Part shown: piece by piece, positions 31,461 to 43,735 of the stretch
Layout: every line of letters begins with the position of its first letter
Position numbering within the stretch: the first letter of the stretch is position 1
Source of the DNA: Acidobacteriota bacterium
Lineage (GTDB): Bacteria > Acidobacteriota > Blastocatellia > RBC074
DNA: 64,000 nucleotides
Direction: 5' to 3'
Assembly: GCA_016196035.1 (NCBI GenBank)
Contig: JACPYM010000054.1
Coordinates: 62,001-126,000 of the forward strand
The notes under the pieces: model-generated
Databases searched by the model: none
Told to the model about the DNA's origin: nothing
Seen by the model: only the letters and a program-made list of their open reading frames with translations
Made by a program: the position numbers and the translations under genes

Positions 31461-31582
31461 GCGAGAAATGTTTACTCTTCGGCTTACCTCAAGACAAACA
31501 ACTTCCAAGTCACAATCCGAAAGCAGTTGAATTACCCCGCAGGCGCACAATGCGGTTGCGACCTTCTTTGGTGAGAGAACGC

Positions 31583-33241
31583 ATGCCGAAATACATCTTT
31601 GTAACTGGTGGAGTGGTCAGCGGCTTGGGCAAAGGCATCGCCGCCGCTTCGATTGCTGCGTTGCTGGAAGCGCGCGGTCTGAAAGTCACGTTGATGAAGT
31701 TCGATCCCTACATCAACGTTGACCCCGGCACGATGTCGCCGTTCCAACACGGCGAAGTTTTCGTCACCGATGACGGCGCGGAAACCGATCTGGACTTGGG
31801 CCATTACGAACGCTACTCGCACGCGCGGTTGACCAAAGCCAATAACTGGACTTCGGGGCGTATTTATCTTTCCGTCATCGAGAAAGAACGGCGCGGCGAT
31901 TATCTGGGCAAGACGATCCAAGTCATCCCGCACATCACCAACGAAATCAAAGACGCGATCAAAACCGTTGCCCAAAGCCACGACATCGTCATCGTCGAAA
32001 TCGGCGGCACCGTCGGCGACATCGAATCGCTGCCCTTCCTCGAAGCCATCCGCCAGATGGGCAACGAAGTCGGACGCCACAACGCGATCTTCGTGCACCT
32101 GACGCTGGTTCCCTACCTCGCCGCTTCTGCTGAACTGAAAACCAAACCGACGCAGCATTCGGTCAAAGAACTGCTGACCATCGGGATTCAGCCCGACATT
32201 CTGCTTTGCCGTTGCGACCGCGAATTGCCCAGTGAGATGAAGGCCAAGATCGCGCTCTTCTGCAACGTCTCGACAGACGCCGTCATCACCGCGCCCGATG
32301 TCAAAACCGTTTACGAAATCCCATTGATGTTCAACCGCGAAGGTCTCGATCAATTGATCGTAGACTTGTTGCGCTTGCCACTTGGTGATACCGATTTGCG
32401 TCAATGGGCGGCGCTGGTCAGCCGCATTCGCAGCCTGCGCGAATCGGTCACCATCGGCATCATTGGCAAATACGTCGGTTACGAAGATTCCTACAAGAGC
32501 CTGAATGAAGCACTGCATCACGGCGGCTTCGCCAATCACGTCAAGGTCAAATTCAACTGGATCGAAAGTGATGAGTTGATGACCGACGAACGCTGGGAAG
32601 ACCGTTTGCGCGAACTTGACGCCATCCTGGTGCCTGGCGGCTTCGGCAAACGCGGCGTCAGCGGCATGATCCGCGCGATCAGCTTTGCACGAAAGTATCA
32701 CAAACCCTTTTTCGGCATCTGCCTCGGCATGCAATGCGCCTCGCTCGAATTCGCGCGCAATGTCTGTGGCTTGGAACAGGCCGATTCGACCGAGTTTGCC
32801 GAAGACACGCCCGATCCGGTGATCTTCAAACTGCGCGACCTGCTGGGCGTAGACCAACTCGGCGGCACAATGCGGCTGGGCGCGTATCCCTGCAACTTGC
32901 GCGAGGACTCGCTCGCGCAACGCATTTATGGCACAGATGAAATCAGCGAACGCCATCGCCATCGTTACGAATTCAATCCGGCCTACATTGACCCGCTAGC
33001 CGAGAACGGCCTCGTCTTCAGCGGCAAATCCCCTGACGGCAAATTCGTAGAGATTGTCGAACTGCCCGATCACCCCTGGTTTCTGGGCTGCCAATTTCAT
33101 CCCGAATTGAAATCGAAACCGCTCGCGCCGCATCCGCTCTTCGTCAGCTTTATCAAGGCCGCGCACGAACACCGGTTGCAGGATGAAGCGGGTGAGGTCA
33201 AAAAAGAAGGCGAAGCATTGCTGACAAGCGCCAGCGATTAA
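31583..33241 (+). CDS. pyrG: CTP synthase
   Basis: A 552-residue CTP synthase, which aminates UTP to CTP using glutamine and ATP; this is the final step of pyrimidine nucleotide synthesis. The N-terminal amidoligase domain begins [17 protein letters not shown], with the conserved [22 protein letters not shown] region split over residues 37-58. The C-terminal class I glutamine amidotransferase has its nucleophile C380 in GICLGMQ, and the HPE motif of the triad near the end. Length matches the family (about 535-550) with a slightly long charged tail. ATG 31583 starts at the conserved N-terminus; the longer open frame from 31550 is not needed. CTP also serves CMP-Kdo formation, which fits the Kdo genes downstream. 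Confidence 0.98.
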
Positions 33242-33265
33242 CGCCCTTGGCCCTGCGAGGTGCCC

Positions 33266-36200
33266 ATGCCATTTCAACGTGCTTTCTCACGTCCTTTTGC
33301 CTGGTTTTCACTCTTTGTCGTATGCGCCGTCATTAGTCAGCCGAGCGCCTTGCGGCTCAGAAAAGCTGTCTTCGCTGCGCCTCCGCCAATCACAGCGAAC
33401 ACCCTCGACAGACAACATCCGCCGGCTTCCAAGCTCTATCAATGGCCGCTCAGCTTTGAAGAGAATCGCGGCCAGACCGATCCGCGTGTGCGCTTTCTGG
33501 CGCGCGGGCCGGGCGCAATGTTCTTCCTGGCGGCGGATGAGGCCGTATTGCGTGTGGTGAACGGGCAGCAAAACAAGGCCGCCAATGTGCCTGCGACTTT
33601 GCGCTGGCGGTTGCGCCACGCGAATCCCTCAGCCCGCATCAGCGGATTGAATGCCACCGGCGGGCAGACGAGTTATTTCAACGGCCACGATCCCAGCCAA
33701 TGGCGCACGGGGTTGCGTCATTTCAGCCGCGTCAAATATGAAGCAGTCTATCCCGGCATTGACCTTGTTTATTACGGTCAACAACAGCAACTCGAATACG
33801 ACTTCGTTGTCGCGTCTGGCGCAAACCCACGCCAAATTCGGCTGGCATTTGATGGAATTCGCCGGTTACGGATTGACCGGCAAGGCAATCTGTCGCTGCG
33901 CACGCGCGCAGGCACGGTGCAAATGCGCGCGCCTGCGGTCTATCAGCCAACAGCTAAGGGCCAACGCCGCGTGCGTGCGCGTTATCAACTGTTCGGCAAA
34001 CGCCAAGTCGGTTTTGCGTTCGGCAAGTATGACCGGCGCTTACCGCTGGTGATTGATCCGGTGCTGATTTACGCCACGCCGCTGGGCGGGAATTTCGGCG
34101 CGGCAGGTTATGCGCTGGCGCTGGATGCGCAGGGCAGCGCTTATGTCGCGGGCGCGACCAGTTCCACCGAATTCCCTTACCCCAACAGTTTGCCCAGCGC
34201 GCGCGGCGCACTTGGAGATGTGTTTGTCGCCAAGCTCAATCCGGCCGGCAACGCCTTAGTCTTTGCAGCCATCATCGGCGGCAGCGATGTCGAACATGCG
34301 AATGGCTTGGCGCTCGACGCACAGAACAACGTCTATCTGACGGGCCGGACTTTTTCGCCCGATTACCCGCGCACGCCGGGCGCACTGAAAACCACGCTGT
34401 CTGGCGATTACAGCGCCTTCGTCACCAAGCTCAACGCCAGCGGCAACGCGCTGCTTTATTCAACCTATCTGGGCGGCAACAACAACAGCACGGGCTGGGG
34501 CATCGCGACGGATGCGCAAGGCCGCGCTTTCGTCGCCGGTTCGACCGATGCGAGTGAAGCGCCGCTCGCCAGCGACGTCACGGTGCGCGGCGGCCAGCCG
34601 TTTTTTAGCAGCGGCAATGGCGGCGGCAATTGGACGCCGGGCGGCGGCACGTTGACGCCCGGTTCGGTCAACACCTTGGCCGTCGCCCCGGACACGGGCC
34701 AGACGATATACGCCGACACCTCTGCGGGTCTATTCAAAAGCCTGGATGGTGGCGCAACGTGGCGGCAATTAGCGCCACAGTTGCGTGATCTGCGCTTTCT
34801 CTTCTATCGCGCGTTGGCGGTTGACCCGTTCAATGCGGAAACTGTCTATGCGAGCGGGGGCTTGGGTGTTTACAAGAGCCTCGACGGCGGCGAACACTTC
34901 GCGTTGAAAACCATCGGCTTGGTAGGGCCGAATAACAGCTTTGTGGGAGCCTATTACACGCTGGCGGTGGCGCGCTCCGATGCGCAAACGCTCTACCTGG
35001 GCACGAGTCAGGGCGTCTTTAGAAGCGTGGATGGCGGCGAGTTCTGGACGCCCGCCAACAACGGCATGCTGGTCGCCAATCGTCCGCTCAATGTGGTGGC
35101 GCTGGCGCTTGATCCCACCGATGCGCAAACCGTTTACGCTGGCTCAAGCTATGGCGTTTTCAAAACGACCGACGGCGGCGCGAGCTGGCGACAGCTTTTG
35201 ACCGGCGGCAATCGCGTCCTCGCCATTCACCCCCAAGCGCCGCTCACCATTTATGCCGACCTGCTCACCGCCTCGAATGCGCCGCCCCAACTGCTCAAAT
35301 CCACCGACGGCGGCCTGACCTGGGCGCGCAGCGATACAGGGCTGGAACGTTTGAACGGCAATCAGCTCAGCAGCCCGTCCCTGCGCGCGCTGGCAATTGA
35401 TCCGAATAATCCGAACACGTTGTATGCGGGCACGGACGGCTTCGGCATCTTCAAGAGCAGCGATGGCGGCGCGAATTGGAGCTTGAGCGCCAACGGCCTG
35501 ACCACGCAAACCATTCGCACGCTGGCCGTCGCGCAACAACCGGCGCGTGTTTACGCCGGTGCCGACGCAGGCACGGATGCTTTTGTCGCCAAACTCAAAC
35601 TCGACGGCACAGGGCTGGATTATTTCAAGGTGTTGGCCGGAGCCGAATCTGACACCGCAAACGATGTGCAGACGGATGCCAGCGGCAACGCCTGGCTCGT
35701 GGGCACCACCAACTCAAGCAACTTCCCCACCCTGAATGCGCTGCATCCGCAAAAAGCCGCAGGCGACGATGTTTTCATCAGCAAGCTCGACGCGACAGGC
35801 AATCTAGCCTTTTCAACCTTCCTCGGCGGCCAGGGCAATGATGACGGCGCGGCGCTGGCGCTGGATGCGGACGGCAATGTTTATCTGACGGGCACAACGA
35901 ATTCGACCGACTTCCCTGCCTCGCGCACGCTGCGTCCGGCGAATGCGCCGCTGACCACTGATGCATTTGCCGCCAAGCTCAAGGCTGATGGCTCCGCGCT
36001 GGACTACGCGGTTTATCTGGGCGGCAGCCGCACCGACACAGCCGCTGACATTGCCGTAGACGCACAAGGTCAGGCTTTCGTCATCGGCACCACGGATTCC
36101 GCCGACTTCCCGGTGCGCGGAGCAATCTCGGAGCGGTTGAATCTCGGCAACAATACGGTGCGGACGGATGCCTTTGTGACGCGCTTGAATCGCACGGGCA

Positions 36201-39200
36201 CGGCGTTCCTCTATTCGACCTATCTTGGCGGCGTCTTTACCGACACTGGTGCAGCCATTGCCGTGGATGCGCTTGGGCAAGCTTACGTTACGGGCCGCGC
36301 GACCGTCTTTCCCTACGTCAATCCCATCTTTCAAGCGCAATCCACGGATGCCTTTGTCGCCAAACTCGCGCTCGCACCTGAACTGGCAATCACCCTGACT
36401 GCCGCATCCAACCCCGTCACCTTCGGCAATAACCTGAGCTATACGCTGACCGTCACCAACAATGGCGACAACAAAGGGACAGGCGTCAGCGCCACCTTCA
36501 CGCCTCCCGCTGGGGCGCAACCGGTTTCGGCGGCCGCAAGTCAGGGCATGTGTAGCAACACCGCGAACGATATGTTGAATTGCACTCTCGGTGAATTGAA
36601 CCCGGAAGCACAGGCGGCCATCACTATCATCGTCAAACCGCCCGCCGTCCGCACCGTCACGGCCAGCGCCAGCGTGCGCGCCAATGAACCCGAAGCGAAT
36701 TTGCTCAACAACAATGCGTCCGCCAGTTCCGAAGTGGATTTTGTCGAACTGAGTTTGCAAAACAGTTTGCTTTACAACCTGGCCGCACCGGGCAGCCGCC
36801 TCACTTATGTGCTGCGCGTCACCAACAACAGCGGCAGCACGGCCAGCAATGTCGTCATCACCGACACACTGCCGCTGCAACTGACCTTCGCTTCTTGCCG
36901 CTCACTGGATGGCGGTGTCTGCGGTGGCACGGGCAACACGCGCATGATTACATTCCCCACGCTGCCTGTCGGTGAGAGCAGAACCGCCTTCATCACTGCG
37001 ACCGTCAACAGCAATGTGCCGTCAGGCACGGTTATCAACAACCCAGCCAACGTTGCGGCTACGCTGATTGACGCCGCGCCGGGCAACAACACGGCCAGCG
37101 CCGGCAGCACGGTGGCGGCCACGCTACTGTCCCTCAAAAACAACGGTAAGTTTGCCTACACCGAAAACTCTCAAATCCTCACCACACCTCCAGGCGGTGG
37201 TGAATACACTCCTATTCAATTCGGCTCCGCACCCCTATGGTCGCCCGACGGCACGCAACTGCTTTTCCAGTACGGCGGCGGTTGGGCGATAGCGAATGCC
37301 GACGGCACTGGCGCGCGCCGGCTTCTGGCCGCGAGCAGTTCCAGCCAATCGCCAACCTGGTCGCCCGGCGGTCAGTGGCTCGCCTTTCCTCGCAATAGCG
37401 ACCTTTTCGTGGTCAACCAGGAAGGCGCCAACGAAACGCTGTTGCTGCCCGGCATCGGCGCGCTCGCGCATTTAACTTGGTCTCCGGATGGCTCGAGTTT
37501 CGCCTTTGTACAAGCGGGCGATCTTTACACCATCAACATTGACGGCAGCGGACGGCAGCAACTTACCAACTGGCCCGGTGAAGAAAGCGCGCCACGCTGG
37601 TCGCCCGACGGCCGGCAATTGCTCTTTGTCGGCCTACCGCCCGGTTCTAGTTTCTACACCCTCTACCGCATCAACGCCGATGGCAGCGATCCACAGCGCA
37701 TGGTCAATGGCGGGACGTATTTCGCCACGCCGGTCTGGTCGCCCGACGGCACGCAGATCGCTTTCGTCGCCGCCGAATTGCCAGGTGGAACGAGCACACC
37801 ACAGCTTTACCGCATGAACTTGGACGGCACGGGCTTGGTTAATCTCACACTCTTTCGTGCCGCCAGTTCCTGCGATTGGCAGCCGTTGCCTGCCAATACT
37901 CCCCTCACGCCTGGCCCGCTGCCGCAGACTTACACCATCAGTGGACGCCTCACGACCAACACAGCCAACGCCGAACCAGTCAATGCGTTGGTGCGCCTGA
38001 CTGGCACACGCGACGGCACGGTCACCACCGAAAGCGATGGTTCGTTCACGCTCGGCAATCTGCCCGCGGGCGGCCATTACACAGTGACGCCCGCCAGTCG
38101 CGGCATCACCTACGCCTTTAATCCCATCGCACGCAGCTTCGAGAATTTGCGCCAGCACGCGGTGGCCGACTTCCGCGCGGCGCGGGACACCTACAGCATC
38201 AGCGGATTGATTACCGACACCGCTGCCACGCCGTTGGCTGGTGTCGCAGTCACCTTGACGGCCAGCCCGTTGTTTACGACCTTCGCCACCACGACCACCA
38301 ACGCCGAAGGCCGCTATACGTTCGCGGGCTTGCCCGGCGGCGAAGGCTATATCGTCACGCCCACGGCCACCTTCATCGCCAACTTTCAACCGCGTATTGC
38401 CAGCATCCAGCCGCTCAATCGCAACTTCACAGCCAATTTCACCGGCACCCGCCATCAGCCCTTCACCATTCGCGGCAAAATCGCCGAGGCGAGCGGAGCG
38501 CCCAGTGCGGGTGTGCTAGTCACGTTGAGCGGCGGCAGCCAGCCATTGACGACCACCACAGACACACAAGGCAATTATGCGTTCGCCAATCTGGTCGAAG
38601 CTGCCGATTACACGCTGACGCCGCAGAAAGCCGGACTGCGCTTTGCTCCTGTCAGCCGCGCGCTGAACCAACCGCGCAGTGACCGCAACGTGAATTTCAC
38701 GGCTGGCGCGGGTGTGCTGACGGCAATCTCCGCCGCCAGTTATCAAACCATGCTAGGGCAGGATTCGATCATCGCCGCCTTTGGCACAGGCCTGGCAACG
38801 GCGCTGCAAACTGCCACTACCACGCCACTGCCGATGAGCCTGGCTGGCGTGACACTCACGGTGCAGGACAATGAAGGTGTCGAACGCCCGGCCCCGCTCT
38901 TTTTCGTAGCGCCGACGCAACTCAACTTCCTGTTACCCGCTGGCACGAGCGTTGGCACGGCCAGTTTCACCGTCACGCAGAATCAACGCATCGTTGCCGC
39001 CGGTACGGCGCTGATTCGCCGCAACGCGCCTGGCTTCTTTGCGGCCAATGCCAGTGGAGGCGGCGTCGCGGCAGCGTTGCTAGCGCGGCTGACCGTCACC
39101 GGGCAATTGCAATATGACCCGGTCGCGCGCTTCGATCCGCAACTAAACCGTTTCGTACCGATCCCAATAGACATCTCGCAACCCTTCGCGCCTGAACTCG

Positions 39201-39439
39201 TGCTGTTCGGCACTGGTTTCCGTTACGCGCGCGACACTGGCGCCACACCGCCTGACTTCAGCTTGAAAATCGGCGGTACCGCAGCTCAAGCCACCTTTGT
39301 TGGCGCACAAGGTTCGCTGGCTGGCCTGGATCAACTCAACCTAGCCTTGCCGCTAAACCTAGCCGGACGCGGCGTCGTGGACGTCGTTTTGACTGTCGAA
39401 GGGCGCGTCGCCAATACTGTGCAAATCGCAATCAAGTAA
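33266..39439 (+). CDS. Giant mosaic secreted protein: SBBP propeller, BNR, DUF11, PD40, Cna-B-like, TIGR03437
   Basis: A 2057-residue protein with a signal segment (about residues 8-28). The N-terminal domain carries the hallmark FEENRGQTDPRVRFLARGPG (about 62-81). SBBP-type propeller blades lie at about 262-440 and 768-1035 (DAQGSAYVAGATSSTEFP type). Between them are BNR/Asp-box repeats (about 445-765, SxDGGxxW). Next come two DUF11-like domains (about 1040-1288), PD40 blades (about 1291-1545, WSPDG), three carboxypeptidase-regulatory/Cna-B-like domains (about 1555-1812) and the 'Solibacter' C-terminal domain. It is probably a surface or released adhesin-like protein of unknown ligand. It starts 24 bp after pyrG with GCGAGG before ATG 33266, and kdsA follows 19 bp after its stop. 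It therefore appears wedged into a housekeeping operon. Confidence 0.88.
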   Translation: MPFQRAFSRPFAWFSLFVVCAVISQPSALRLRKAVFAAPPPITANTLDRQHPPASKLYQWPLSFEENRGQTDPRVRFLARGPGAMFFLAADEAVLRVVNGQQNKAANVPATLRWRLRHANPSARISGLNATGGQTSYFNGHDPSQWRTGLRHFSRVKYEAVYPGIDLVYYGQQQQLEYDFVVASGANPRQIRLAFDGIRRLRIDRQGNLSLRTRAGTVQMRAPAVYQPTAKGQRRVRARYQLFGKRQVGFAFGKYDRRLPLVIDPVLIYATPLGGNFGAAGYALALDAQGSAYVAGATSSTEFPYPNSLPSARGALGDVFVAKLNPAGNALVFAAIIGGSDVEHANGLALDAQNNVYLTGRTFSPDYPRTPGALKTTLSGDYSAFVTKLNASGNALLYSTYLGGNNNSTGWGIATDAQGRAFVAGSTDASEAPLASDVTVRGGQPFFSSGNGGGNWTPGGGTLTPGSVNTLAVAPDTGQTIYADTSAGLFKSLDGGATWRQLAPQLRDLRFLFYRALAVDPFNAETVYASGGLGVYKSLDGGEHFALKTIGLVGPNNSFVGAYYTLAVARSDAQTLYLGTSQGVFRSVDGGEFWTPANNGMLVANRPLNVVALALDPTDAQTVYAGSSYGVFKTTDGGASWRQLLTGGNRVLAIHPQAPLTIYADLLTASNAPPQLLKSTDGGLTWARSDTGLERLNGNQLSSPSLRALAIDPNNPNTLYAGTDGFGIFKSSDGGANWSLSANGLTTQTIRTLAVAQQPARVYAGADAGTDAFVAKLKLDGTGLDYFKVLAGAESDTANDVQTDASGNAWLVGTTNSSNFPTLNALHPQKAAGDDVFISKLDATGNLAFSTFLGGQGNDDGAALALDADGNVYLTGTTNSTDFPASRTLRPANAPLTTDAFAAKLKADGSALDYAVYLGGSRTDTAADIAVDAQGQAFVIGTTDSADFPVRGAISERLNLGNNTVRTDAFVTRLNRTGTAFLYSTYLGGVFTDTGAAIAVDALGQAYVTGRATVFPYVNPIFQAQSTDAFVAKLALAPELAITLTAASNPVTFGNNLSYTLTVTNNGDNKGTGVSATFTPPAGAQPVSAAASQGMCSNTANDMLNCTLGELNPEAQAAITIIVKPPAVRTVTASASVRANEPEANLLNNNASASSEVDFVELSLQNSLLYNLAAPGSRLTYVLRVTNNSGSTASNVVITDTLPLQLTFASCRSLDGGVCGGTGNTRMITFPTLPVGESRTAFITATVNSNVPSGTVINNPANVAATLIDAAPGNNTASAGSTVAATLLSLKNNGKFAYTENSQILTTPPGGGEYTPIQFGSAPLWSPDGTQLLFQYGGGWAIANADGTGARRLLAASSSSQSPTWSPGGQWLAFPRNSDLFVVNQEGANETLLLPGIGALAHLTWSPDGSSFAFVQAGDLYTINIDGSGRQQLTNWPGEESAPRWSPDGRQLLFVGLPPGSSFYTLYRINADGSDPQRMVNGGTYFATPVWSPDGTQIAFVAAELPGGTSTPQLYRMNLDGTGLVNLTLFRAASSCDWQPLPANTPLTPGPLPQTYTISGRLTTNTANAEPVNALVRLTGTRDGTVTTESDGSFTLGNLPAGGHYTVTPASRGITYAFNPIARSFENLRQHAVADFRAARDTYSISGLITDTAATPLAGVAVTLTASPLFTTFATTTTNAEGRYTFAGLPGGEGYIVTPTATFIANFQPRIASIQPLNRNFTANFTGTRHQPFTIRGKIAEASGAPSAGVLVTLSGGSQPLTTTTDTQGNYAFANLVEAADYTLTPQKAGLRFAPVSRALNQPRSDRNVNFTAGAGVLTAISAASYQTMLGQDSIIAAFGTGLATALQTATTTPLPMSLAGVTLTVQDNEGVERPAPLFFVAPTQLNFLLPAGTSVGTASFTVTQNQRIVAAGTALIRRNAPGFFAANASGGGVAAALLARLTVTGQLQYDPVARFDPQLNRFVPIPIDISQPFAPELVLFGTGFRYARDTGATPPDFSLKIGGTAAQATFVGAQGSLAGLDQLNLALPLNLAGRGVVDVVLTVEGRVANTVQIAIK

Positions 39440-39458: not shown

Positions 39459-40271
39459 ATGGATAACGTTTATCAACGGCTCAAACAAACGCCTGAACAA
39501 CTCTTTCTGCTCGCCGGCCCTTGCGTCATCGAATCTGAATCACACGCGCTGAAAATGGCCGCAGCCATCAATGACATCGCGCAACGGCTGAACATCCCCT
39601 ACGTCTTCAAAGCCTCTTATGACAAAGCCAACCGCACATCCGGCGCGGCCTTTCGCGGCCTGGGGCTGGACGAAGGCTTGCGCATCCTGCAAAAGATCAA
39701 GCGCGAGATCGGCGTCCCCGTGCTGACCGATGTGCACGAATCCGCCCAAGTGCCCGCCGTTGCTGAGGTCGCAGACATCCTGCAAATCCCCGCCTTCCTG
39801 TGCCGCCAAACTGATCTGCTGAGCGCCGCCGCCAACAGCGGACGCATCGTCAACGTCAAGAAGGGGCAGTTCCTCTCACCTTGGGAAATGAAAAACATCG
39901 TCGAGAAGCTGGAAGCTCACAACTGCCGCGAGATCATGCTGACCGAACGCGGATCAAGTTTCGGCTACAACAACCTGGTCGTGGATATGCGCGGCTTGCC
40001 GGTAATGCGCGGCTTTGGCTATCCGGTGGTTTACGATGCGACGCATAGTTTGCAATTGCCCGGCGGCGCGGGCGCGGCGACAGGTGGGTTGCGCGAATAC
40101 ATTCCCCACTTGGCGCGCGCGGCGGTGGCGTGTGGGGTTGACGGCTTGTTTATGGAAGTTCACGATCAGCCCGAACGGGCGTTGAGCGATGCGGCGACGC
40201 AATTCCCGCTCGACAAACTGCAGCCGTTGCTGGAAAAATTGCTCAAGCTTCACGCGCTGGCTCGTTCATAG
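39459..40271 (+). CDS. kdsA: 3-deoxy-8-phosphooctulonate synthase (Kdo-8-P synthase)
   Basis: A 270-residue DAHP-synthase-fold enzyme that condenses phosphoenolpyruvate with arabinose 5-phosphate to give Kdo 8-phosphate. Visible are the family opener [24 protein letters not shown], the TDVHE motif, [22 protein letters not shown] and the [16 protein letters not shown] block. The near-terminal [12 protein letters not shown] matches the metal-site region (EVHxxPxxAxSD). Length is standard (about 270-285). It lies between the mosaic surface-protein gene and an M1-like protein, with kdsC 3 kb downstream, so this stretch supplies Kdo for lipopolysaccharide. No strong Shine-Dalgarno is visible. Confidence 0.97.
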
Positions 40272-40346
40272 TTTTTGTAAGCCGCAATGAATGATGGCCA
40301 GGACGATAGCCCAACAATGGCAGAACCAAAGGATAGATTGCCCAAG

Positions 40347-42782
40347 ATGAAAAGACTCTCTTTCGCACTGATAATGCTCGCGTTTTGCTGCACCGTGACG
40401 GTCGCGCAGGAATTCGAGATCAAAAAGTACGACGTCAACGCCAAGGTCAACGTCGAAACGCGCAGCTTGGAAATGACCGCCAAGTTGCGGCTGGTCAATC
40501 TCTCGCCACCCGATTTGGCTGACAAGATTCTGCTCTCGACCGACAACAAGCCGCGCATGTCGTTTTACCTAAACGAAAAAGCCAAGCTCGGCACGCTGAC
40601 GGTCAATGGCGCTGCTGTCACGCCCAAGACGACCGAAGACACGCGCAACCGTTTGCTGCGTGTTTCGACCGAGATGACCGCGACGCTGGCTGCGGCGCGC
40701 GAATTCGATGTTGAATTCGTTTACACCTTGCCCTCGCCGGAACGCAATTCTTCGCTGCACGTTTCGGCCAACGAATCGTTTGCGCTGCCGCCCGGTTTCT
40801 GGGTACCGGTTGTGCATACGCCTTATGCTGAACACAGCGCCGACACGGGGCCACTGACGTTGACCGTCACGGTGCCCGGCAATCTCAAAGTCGTCTCGAA
40901 TGGTATTCGCAAAAGCGACACAGTGTTTGAACAGCCGCTGGCGGCGCAGCCCTTTTTTGTCGCGGGCGATTACGAAATGACGGCGCGCGGCGGCGACAGC
41001 TTACCCGTTGAAGTTTATGCGCCGCGCGGTTTGAACGCCGCCGGCAAAGCCCAAGCGCAACGGCTGGCCGCCGAGGCCGAAAAGATGCTGGCGTTTTACG
41101 CCAGGTTCTTTGGCGTCCCGGCCAACGGCCCCTTCCGCATCATTTCGACCGAAGCGCGCCAACTCGGCTCGACTTCGACCGAAGAGCTTTCGCAAGCCCG
41201 CGACAGCGCTTTCTCAACCGTGGGCGCGGTGCTGCTGGATGACAGCGTCTTTCGCCGCGATGCGCTCGACCTGGGCACGATTGAGTTTCTCGCGCAAGCC
41301 GCCGCGCGTTCGTGGATTGACGGCCAGGTGCTCTTGCGGGGACGCGGCGCAGGGCTGCTGCGCGATGCCTTGCCGATTTATCTGACGGCGCAATATCTGG
41401 GCGAACGCTTTGGCGCGGCCCAACGCGAAAGCGCCTATGATCGTTATCGCCGCGCCTATATCACCGTCGCCCGTTCGGACGCGCCTTTGCTGACACAGAG
41501 CGTGTTGGATCGCAGCTACACCACCGTCGTTTATAACAAAGGCGCGCTGGTCTGGCGCACGCTGGAACTGTTGCTGGGCCGTTCGTCGTTCGAGAACCTG
41601 CTGCGCGCCGCGCTCAATCGCCAGCGCGTAGACATTCTCTCGCTGGCGGGTTTCTTCGATACGCAAACCACGCGGCGGCCACCGCATCCGCTCTGCAATC
41701 TGTCGCGCTGTGCCGATGTGCGCATGCTGCTGCTCAACGCGGGCGCCAACAAACAGGTGGTCAGCGATTTCTTCACGAACTGGATTGAGAATGCCGTGCT
41801 GCCTGATTTCGTCGTCGGCCAGCCGCAACCGACCGCTGCGGGCGTCGAATCCACCATCGCCAATTTTGGCAACGGTGATTTCACCATCGAAATCGTCGCG
41901 ACCACCGACAAAAATGAAACGTTGCGCCAGCAGGTGGCGCTCAAAGCAGGCGAATACAGTACCGTCACCTTCCCCACCGGCACGGTGATCAAAACTATCG
42001 AAGCCGACCCGAACAAACTTTACGTGCAAAAGGATTACACCAACGACGTGTTTCCGCGCCGTGCCAATGCGGCGGAGGCTTTCGGCTTAGCCAACACGGC
42101 ATTCGGCAAAAACGATTTCGCCACGGCTGAAGCCAAAGCGCGCGAGGCGCTCGTCAACGAGCCGAATCAACCGACGCTGCAAGCCTTCCTGGGCCGCGTG
42201 CTGCTGGCCCAAAACAAAGGGGCCGAAGCGAAGCAGGTGTTTGAAGCCATCCTCAAAAGCGACACCTTGCCGATTCAGGCTTACACCTACGCGCACTTTG
42301 GGCTGGGCGACTTGGCGCTGCAACAGAGCAACTTTACTGAGGCCGCAGCGCAGTATCGCGCCGCCGCCGCCGCCGAACTCGATCCGGGCACCACGCTCAG
42401 CGCCCGCGAAGGCGCGCTCAAAGCCGAACGCGGCGGCAATGCGGTGAAGCTGCCCGAAGAAGTGCGCGCCTTTCTGAAAAATCTCGATTCTGTGGTGGTC
42501 AGCGGCACATCCGACCAAGTCGGCGCCCTGCTCGACCTCGGCAATTTGAAAGGCTTCTCGCAACGGCTGGTGTTGCGCAAACCGACCGTCTGGACGACCG
42601 AAGCGCTGCGCAGCGAAGAGTGGGACGCCAATCGCCTGGCGGTGGACGTGCTGTTGAAAATCAGAATCGAGGGCAAAGATTACGCCGGGCGCGCCGTTTA
42701 CGTGCTCAATCGCGCCAGCGGCAAACTACTGCTCAGCGAAGTGCCGATCTTTGATGTGAAGGTCACCGGGGGCACGCAATGA
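40347..42782 (+). CDS. Secreted M1-peptidase-like protein lacking the zinc motif, with TPR C-terminus
   Basis: An 811-residue protein counted from ATG 40347, which gives a clean signal peptide (MKRLSFALIMLAFCC..VAQ). ATG 40317 is an alternative. An N-terminal beta domain resembles the first domain of M1 aminopeptidases. The middle has the M1-like shape (LPIYLTAQYLGERFG, YNKGALVWRTLELLLG). Where HExxH is expected, near residue 313, the sequence is EFLAQAAARSW, so the zinc ligands are missing. The last 250 residues contain TPR-like helices (about 575-700) and a final beta domain. It may be a catalytically dead scaffold or periplasmic binding protein. It lies between kdsA and kdsC in the same direction. 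The family call is moderate, since it rests on fold-level pattern. Confidence 0.6.
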   Translation: MKRLSFALIMLAFCCTVTVAQEFEIKKYDVNAKVNVETRSLEMTAKLRLVNLSPPDLADKILLSTDNKPRMSFYLNEKAKLGTLTVNGAAVTPKTTEDTRNRLLRVSTEMTATLAAAREFDVEFVYTLPSPERNSSLHVSANESFALPPGFWVPVVHTPYAEHSADTGPLTLTVTVPGNLKVVSNGIRKSDTVFEQPLAAQPFFVAGDYEMTARGGDSLPVEVYAPRGLNAAGKAQAQRLAAEAEKMLAFYARFFGVPANGPFRIISTEARQLGSTSTEELSQARDSAFSTVGAVLLDDSVFRRDALDLGTIEFLAQAAARSWIDGQVLLRGRGAGLLRDALPIYLTAQYLGERFGAAQRESAYDRYRRAYITVARSDAPLLTQSVLDRSYTTVVYNKGALVWRTLELLLGRSSFENLLRAALNRQRVDILSLAGFFDTQTTRRPPHPLCNLSRCADVRMLLLNAGANKQVVSDFFTNWIENAVLPDFVVGQPQPTAAGVESTIANFGNGDFTIEIVATTDKNETLRQQVALKAGEYSTVTFPTGTVIKTIEADPNKLYVQKDYTNDVFPRRANAAEAFGLANTAFGKNDFATAEAKAREALVNEPNQPTLQAFLGRVLLAQNKGAEAKQVFEAILKSDTLPIQAYTYAHFGLGDLALQQSNFTEAAAQYRAAAAAELDPGTTLSAREGALKAERGGNAVKLPEEVRAFLKNLDSVVVSGTSDQVGALLDLGNLKGFSQRLVLRKPTVWTTEALRSEEWDANRLAVDVLLKIRIEGKDYAGRAVYVLNRASGKLLLSEVPIFDVKVTGGTQ

Positions 42783-42810: not shown

Positions 42811-43131
42811 ATGGCTGAATCGTCCAAAAATCTACTGCTCAAATGGCTATTCACGTTGGTGGCAATTCCGCTGTTTTGGCTGTTACTGTTTACCTCATTT
42901 AGAGAATCGGCAATGGCAATCTGGCTCATAGGAATGGCTTTCTATATTCCATTAGCGCTTTACGTTGGTGGCAAAATCACGCTTCAACATGGGCCACTTT
43001 CAGCACAAGCAGACCGCCTTCGTTATTGGGTCGTCATATTGGGCAAAATCGAATGGGGTCTATTTACCTTATTGGCCTATTTTCTATTCTACCTGCTTCT
43101 CTTTAATCGCGAGGCCTTCTGGGCAGATTAA
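42811..43131 (+). CDS. Small membrane protein, unknown function
   Basis: A 106-residue protein with hydrophobic segments at about 10-29, 33-52 and 76-97, and a polar loop with QHGPLSAQADR between the second and third. I recognise no family. It starts 29 bp after the M1-like gene and ends about 50 bp before kdsC, so it probably belongs to the same transcript. Its codon use is less GC-rich than that of its neighbours. Confidence 0.6.
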   Translation: MAESSKNLLLKWLFTLVAIPLFWLLLFTSFRESAMAIWLIGMAFYIPLALYVGGKITLQHGPLSAQADRLRYWVVILGKIEWGLFTLLAYFLFYLLLFNREAFWAD

Positions 43132-43183: not shown

Positions 43184-43735
43184 ATGCCGCTTCCTCTGAC
43201 TGAAATCGAAGCACGGGCACGCCACATTCGTTTGCTGCTGCTGGATTGTGATGGCGTGCTGACGGATGGCAGCGTCATTTATTCAGTAACCGACGGCCAC
43301 GCGGCGGAAACGACCAAGGTCTTCCACATTCACGATGGCCAAGGTTTGCGGCTGGCCCGGCAAGCCGGCTTGAAACTCGGCCTCATCAGCGGGCGCGCGT
43401 CGCGGGCGCTTGAGACACGCGCGCGCGAATTGGCTTTCGACTATCTCTATCAAAACGTCGCCGACAAATTCAGCGTTTACGAACAACTACGCCAGGCCGA
43501 ACAACTCACCGATGAACAGATCGCTTATATCGGAGACGACTTGCCCGATCTCGCGCCGCTGTTGCGCGCCGGGTTGGGCATTGCCGTAGCCGATGCCGTG
43601 CCCGATGTCTTGCAACGCGCGCACTATGTCACCGCCAAGCCCGGCGGACGCGGCGCCGTGCGCGAAGCCGTCGAATTGATTCTCAAGGCACAGAATCGCT
43701 GGGATGCCGCTGTACACGGCTTCCTGCCAACCTAG
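43184..43735 (+). CDS. kdsC: Kdo-8-phosphate phosphatase (HAD family)
   Basis: A 183-residue HAD-type phosphatase that releases phosphate from Kdo 8-phosphate. The HAD nucleophile motif LLLDCDGVLTDG (D21, D23) is followed by FHIHDGQGLRLARQAG, the ISGR motif (motif II), a lysine in the DKFSVYEQL region and IGDDLPDLAPLL (motif III/IV). This fits the short, capless C0-type KdsC family. The stop TAG is formed by the left end of a MITE-like element at 43733. Before insertion the stop would have been TAA, so the protein end is unchanged. Confidence 0.93.
   Translation: MPLPLTEIEARARHIRLLLLDCDGVLTDGSVIYSVTDGHAAETTKVFHIHDGQGLRLARQAGLKLGLISGRASRALETRARELAFDYLYQNVADKFSVYEQLRQAEQLTDEQIAYIGDDLPDLAPLLRAGLGIAVADAVPDVLQRAHYVTAKPGGRGAVREAVELILKAQNRWDAAVHGFLPT

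Follow-up and report, generated by a model that had tools for sequence, protein, structure and literature searches.

M1 zinc aminopeptidases (Pfam Peptidase_M1; PepN, ERAP, PSA, LTA4H) have eukaryotic homologues in the cytoplasm and nucleus, non-catalytic or doubtfully catalytic, that serve non-enzymatic roles. One of these is TAF2, a subunit of TFIID, and another is yeast Tma108; we know of no TPR or Kdo link for either. The substrate pocket of Tma108 holds nascent chains, and all of its active-site residues but one are retained, as described in section 13 of a review (PMC11266112), where the pseudopeptidases discussed are nearly all eukaryotic. From another enzyme family comes BepA of E. coli, which combines a metallopeptidase fold with C-terminal TPRs and acts in the periplasm in LPS assembly (PMC8423444).

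We describe a bacterial protein that resembles both kinds. Like Tma108 and TAF2 it is an M1 homologue for which we propose a non-enzymatic role, although they act in the cytoplasm or nucleus; like BepA it joins a metallopeptidase fold to C-terminal TPRs, but BepA is of the M48 family and has an active HExxH. We assign the protein to neither the Tma108 nor the BepA family.

The gene, its neighbours and its domains

The window is the whole 64,000-nucleotide stretch of Acidobacteriota DNA analysed here (contig JACPYM010000054.1, positions 62,001 to 126,000). Gene calls are ORFs only, and all features given below are on the + strand. The gene of interest (40347..42782), recognised by its ORF, Pfam matches and profile alignments, encodes an M1-derived pseudopeptidase of 811 aa with TPRs and a C-terminal domain. 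The start at 40347 gives a signal-peptide-like N-terminus; an in-frame ATG at 40287 is a possible alternative, and the stop ends at 42782.

Upstream by 75 bp is kdsA, for 3-deoxy-8-phosphooctulonate synthase (39459..40271; NF003543, 415 bits, cut-off 242), and downstream is kdsC, of the Kdo-8-phosphate phosphatase family (43184..43735; TIGR01670, 150 bits, cut-off 107). Kdo is an outer-membrane sugar. The first-pass annotation, which was made from the sequence of the window, had placed the gene between kdsA and kdsC; both do flank it on the same strand, but a hydrophobic 106-aa ORF (42811..43131) intervenes before kdsC, 28 bp after the pseudopeptidase gene and 52 bp before kdsC. This ORF has no Pfam or NCBIfam match and phmmer did not find it at the other loci scanned. 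Further upstream lies pyrG, for CTP synthase (31550..33241; family profile match), which is a neighbour in other genomes too.

Residues 1-21 (40347..40409), as read from the sequence, are a likely Sec signal peptide ending in VAQ before EFE. Of 45 orthologues, 41 have a hydrophobic stretch among their first 40 residues, and none has a lipobox pattern. We take the window protein to be exported and most likely periplasmic. The M1-like part, defined by profile homology (residues 22-567; 40410..42047), comprises the beta domain, the lost catalytic domain and the beta-sandwich. It is followed by a TPR region (residues ~568-697; 42048..42437) that scores 43.7 bits with TPR_16, above the Pfam cut-off. 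The earlier description of an exported M1-like protein with a TPR-like C-terminus is confirmed.

The orthologue alignment adds a conserved C-terminal domain of ~105 aa (residues ~700-806; 42444..42764), with predicted helices and then five strands. By eye only, this helix/strand order is NTF2-like. The domain profile found no PDB match below E 0.4, one of 20 members matched DUF4864 (E 0.008), and an NTF2-like fold appeared in neither structure search among the matches listed. We did not adopt an NTF2-like identity, for which the helix/strand order was the sole ground and which the profiles did not confirm.

Structure models were of low confidence. AlphaFold2, given an alignment of only four sequences, modelled the full protein at pLDDT 52 and pTM 0.28; residues 565-811, modelled as a single sequence with no alignment, reached pLDDT 56.8. 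Foldseek rows for the low-confidence model were M1 enzymes, but with TM of 0.13-0.18 and rmsd over 20. VIA-align superposed the TPR region, in a model of low overall confidence, on the TPR domain of CHIP (Z 18.2, rmsd 2.4, 125 aligned); its rows were mostly TPR-type domains, with little information outside residues ~569-701.

M1 homology and the former zinc site

The Pfam Peptidase_M1 model gives the window protein only 16.9 bits (residues 384-426), under its cut-off of 27.7, and matches 25 of 45 family members at E<=0.1. Using hhalign, the M1-part profile of the 45 orthologues was aligned to five HExxH-bearing M1 proteins of the same genome over 470 columns (99.3%, E 9.3e-21), versus E 0.63 for a reversed-profile control. 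An M1-only profile (A4), for which 24 of the 45 orthologues were used, hit 29 distinct PDB sequences at E<=0.001, the best at 3.2e-9, all of them named as aminopeptidases or zinc metalloproteases (aminopeptidase N, PSA, ERAP2 and relatives). The full-length profile of the 45 orthologues (A1) matched many TPR proteins too, as expected. The M48 family was not among the Pfam matches listed, and the peptidase-derived domain aligns with M1. According to the Pfam model the window's genome has eight further M1-like genes, counting L082 and L084 as one; HExxH is intact in six and missing in two, L081 and L083. Matches to M1 paralogues of this genome reached E 1.5e-25.

These comparisons put the homology between residues ~22-567 and the M1 zinc aminopeptidases well above chance, and we infer that the M1 fold is retained. 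Shared with the M1 enzymes are the N-terminal beta domain, the catalytic-domain helices, the W.P and KGA stretches and the beta-sandwich. What sets the family apart, besides the window protein's score below the Pfam cut-off, is the absence of HExxH, in most rows also of the catalytic Tyr, and the C-terminal TPRs with their further domain. GxMEN is the exopeptidase motif of M1 aminopeptidases; by eye, no row of the 45-row aligned block contains it.

The first-pass annotation had read EFLAQAAARSW as a lost zinc site. Alignments with active M1 paralogues agree, placing the HExxH remnant at Q317-A318-A-A-R321 (41295..41309) and the third zinc ligand position, Glu in M1, at D340 (41364..41366). The register was the same across alignments: A-H-E-x-x-H-x-W of the paralogues lies over A-Q317-A-A-A-R321-S-W of the window protein, and the third Glu over D340. 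To count residues at the site we pooled the 45 orthologues in A1 with those of 13 further genomes, giving 58 genomes with the window's own included, and used 57 rows, excluding L115 and L116 where the site is incompletely covered. Conservation of the lost ligands had been proposed as a check, and the outcome was uniform: both HExxH His and the catalytic Glu are missing in all 57 orthologues. In the second-His column 50 rows have R/K, six Q and one E. Asp or Glu fills the third-ligand column in 51 rows (D 37, E 14), the others having Q (five) or G (one), and the two preferences, R/K with D/E, occur jointly in 45. The catalytic-Tyr column, before KGA, has Tyr in 10 of the 58 rows with a letter there, Y396 of the window protein included.

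In M1 enzymes the second His and third Glu ligands oppose each other across the zinc. Since the two positions would face each other here as well, an Arg/Lys-Asp/Glu salt bridge may have taken the place of zinc. Conservation at the old zinc site (residues 311-345) is 0.606, compared with a core average of 0.525. No residue in this stretch is invariant in A1; invariant residues, which are mostly Gly, Pro, Trp, Asn and Asp, are densest in the beta-sandwich and linker, 481-567 (seven of 87 columns). Judged by residue conservation, the old zinc site is under constraint and not degenerating. M1-type zinc peptidase activity is very probably absent from the window protein. Some other chemistry may still be possible without the HExxH residues.

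Distribution and descent of the family

An orthologue was present in 58 of 58 genomes of the first search. Class-wide, 146 of 162 genomes were matched (E<=1e-25), among them 98 of the 101 good genomes; the 16 genomes with no match include the remaining three good ones. In a sample of 199 genomes from the phylum, the 21 class genomes, own included, all scored E 1e-226 or better, while none of the 178 out-of-class genomes yielded a full-length orthologue. Eighteen of the 178 reach the E 1e-25 threshold, at 166 bits at most, and most of these matches end no later than the TPR part, profile positions 541 and 613 being the end points of two. Because it is near-universal in the class and has no full-length orthologue in the 178 others, the family marks the window's class. 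A scan of viral contigs for additional family sequences found none.

Loss of the site in this gene is not a local accident, since it is ancestral and fixed, with either His or Glu in 0 of 57 orthologues. An accident or a pseudogene is ruled out by this loss together with the keeping of the gene in 98 of the 101 good genomes. As the alignment shows, the M1 ancestor of the family lost both His and the catalytic Glu before the class diversified.

A tree of 32 M1 parts (508 columns, midpoint rooting) was built from 16 of the 45 A1 orthologues and 16 other M1-like proteins, omitting L082/L084. The window family formed a separate branch with support of 100, L105 was its neighbour, and the remaining M1 proteins, whether active or inactive, grouped together at 85. 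L105, of genome G090, is the best out-of-class match and has an intact HExxH; the other eight of the nine out-of-class loci examined lack it. Relatives with intact HExxH had been named beforehand as evidence against an inactive protein. None occurs among the orthologues, but the nearest out-of-class homologue, L105, is one. We read intact L105 as marking the ancestral active state, and with that the inactive reading of the window family stands.

Other M1-like proteins of the phylum also lack HExxH, and most of these have TPR-like tails. This second set comprises L081 (C119) and L083 (C2) in the window's own genome, and L106-L113, and extends to other classes of the phylum. Those forming a pseudo-M1/TPR group (L081, L106-L111, L113) resemble the window family in their exported M1-like part, missing HExxH and, by eye, TPR-like tail, but they lie apart from it in the tree, as a separate clade. 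With long branches and support of 85, the tree tentatively suggests that the class-wide site loss took place on the window family's own stem, separately from this second group.

Gene order and possible roles

Gene order was counted where a locus has 1500 bp of flank or more; L114, L115, L116 and L100, being short or fragmentary, were omitted. Conservation of the order had been proposed as a check. An upstream kdsA, on the same strand and no more than 1500 bp away, was present in 33 of 44 loci, and kdsC lay within 1500 bp downstream in 24 of 47. Both are near in 18 of 41 loci and neither in eight. The kdsA-adjacent orthologues diverge to ~30% protein identity, and gaps are often <100 bp. Many loci have pyrG further upstream, other neighbours vary, and in G020 a kdsB match shares a contig with the orthologue (G020:C22).

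In genus g17, seven genomes have kdsA elsewhere in the genome. We searched for kdsA in 20 genomes, mostly ones without an adjacent copy, and 17 of them contained a strong match (E<=1e-99). The other three, G002, G004 and G005 (draft genomes, 92-97% complete), gave no kdsA orthologue, their best matches being DAHP-synthase-like (1e-20 to 1e-28); the gene may simply have been missed by these incomplete assemblies. All three retain the pseudopeptidase gene (loci L040, L041 and L009), which directly follows pyrG in G002 (gap 102 bp) and G004 (312 bp). They also have kdsB, and WaaA was found in G004 and G005; a WaaA search in G002 found none. Kdo is probably still made in these genomes by another synthase, and they possibly contain a non-orthologous Kdo-8-phosphate synthase. 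LpxC was present in 16 of 16 genomes tested, and by this marker lipid A is made there. As G002, G004 and G005 keep the gene without kdsA, and eight of 41 loci have no nearby kds gene, the connection with Kdo may be no more than historical. For the pseudopeptidase itself, the role of a Kdo-pathway enzyme was rejected as unlikely, since these three genomes keep it without a kdsA orthologue.

Export, the domains and the neighbouring Kdo genes are the grounds for our proposal that the window protein is a non-catalytic binding protein in envelope assembly, a reading towards which we lean. After the M1 ancestor had lost both His and the catalytic Glu, before diversification of the class, the M1 fold would have persisted; the TPRs and small extra domain occupy the place of the helical-repeat domain of M1 enzymes. 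The Arg/Lys-Asp/Glu pair at the former zinc position would hold the old active-site helices together. The M1 groove and TPRs would then hold segments of envelope proteins that are unfolded or extended, without catalysis, in a scaffold or chaperone job in outer-membrane or LPS assembly. A more specific form of the proposal, which we consider rather unlikely, is that these class-wide periplasmic M1-fold pseudopeptidases, with a salt bridge for zinc, constitute a dedicated LPS/outer-membrane-protein assembly factor, a match to the chaperone half of BepA that evolved independently, out of a different peptidase family.

An outright non-catalytic counterpart of BepA, in which the protease-derived fold and TPRs would aid assembly of LptD or other barrels in chaperone mode only, is an analogy we hold to be unlikely. 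The layout does match, a metallopeptidase fold and then TPRs, in an exported protein whose gene adjoins LPS-core genes. BepA is described as aiding the maturation of LptD, as degrading LptD that has stalled, and as contacting LptD and BAM through its TPRs (PMC8423444). The peptidase families differ, however (M1 vs M48), maturation of LptD is supported only in part by the BepA E137Q mutant (PMC8423444), and the scan of neighbours (10 proteins, eight of them neighbours in other genomes) turned up no recognisable lpt or bam gene. The window protein could instead regulate the active M1 enzymes of its cell or act as their decoy, either by taking up the peptides they bind or as the partner of an active paralogue. 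Six own-genome paralogues with intact HExxH would be available for this, and pseudo-subunits act so in the mitochondrial processing peptidase (M16), according to the review (PMC11266112), but the linkage is to Kdo genes rather than to an active M1, and we find this role quite improbable.

The passenger explanation strikes us as equally doubtful: inherited gene order would keep the gene by kdsA, with a role unrelated to the envelope. It would accommodate the retention of the gene where kdsA is absent or elsewhere, but not easily an adjacency that lasts in three quarters of the loci at such sequence divergence and with such short gaps. Very unlikely, in our estimate, is a functional enzyme with other chemistry in the old M1 cleft, using the conserved basic and acidic residues on, for example, a sugar or lipid substrate. 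The joint occurrence of Arg/Lys and Asp/Glu at the old ligand sites and the carbohydrate enzymes encoded nearby would suit it, yet the old zinc site has no invariant residue in A1, and the residues that are invariant elsewhere look structural.

To our knowledge the outer membrane of Acidobacteriota has been little studied. A literature search by title or start of abstract, with most subscription journals outside its coverage, found no paper on this protein. Pseudopeptidases as a kind are already known; if our preferred reading of an envelope binding protein is true, a near-universal, class-wide bacterial pseudo-M1, usually found by Kdo genes, would add a conserved envelope factor not described before. 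Genes of this kind should not be annotated as active M1 peptidases.

Two further proteins were seen upstream of kdsA. In the window, the space between pyrG and kdsA is occupied by a 2059-aa secreted repeat protein (33260-39439) with DUF7948, SBBP, DUF11, PD40 and carboxypeptidase-regulatory domains. Some other genomes encode, immediately ahead of kdsA, a protein whose start is zinc-ribbon-like (L055:4113-5660, L063:10180-11691), and the one in L055, which was scanned, is a protein kinase.
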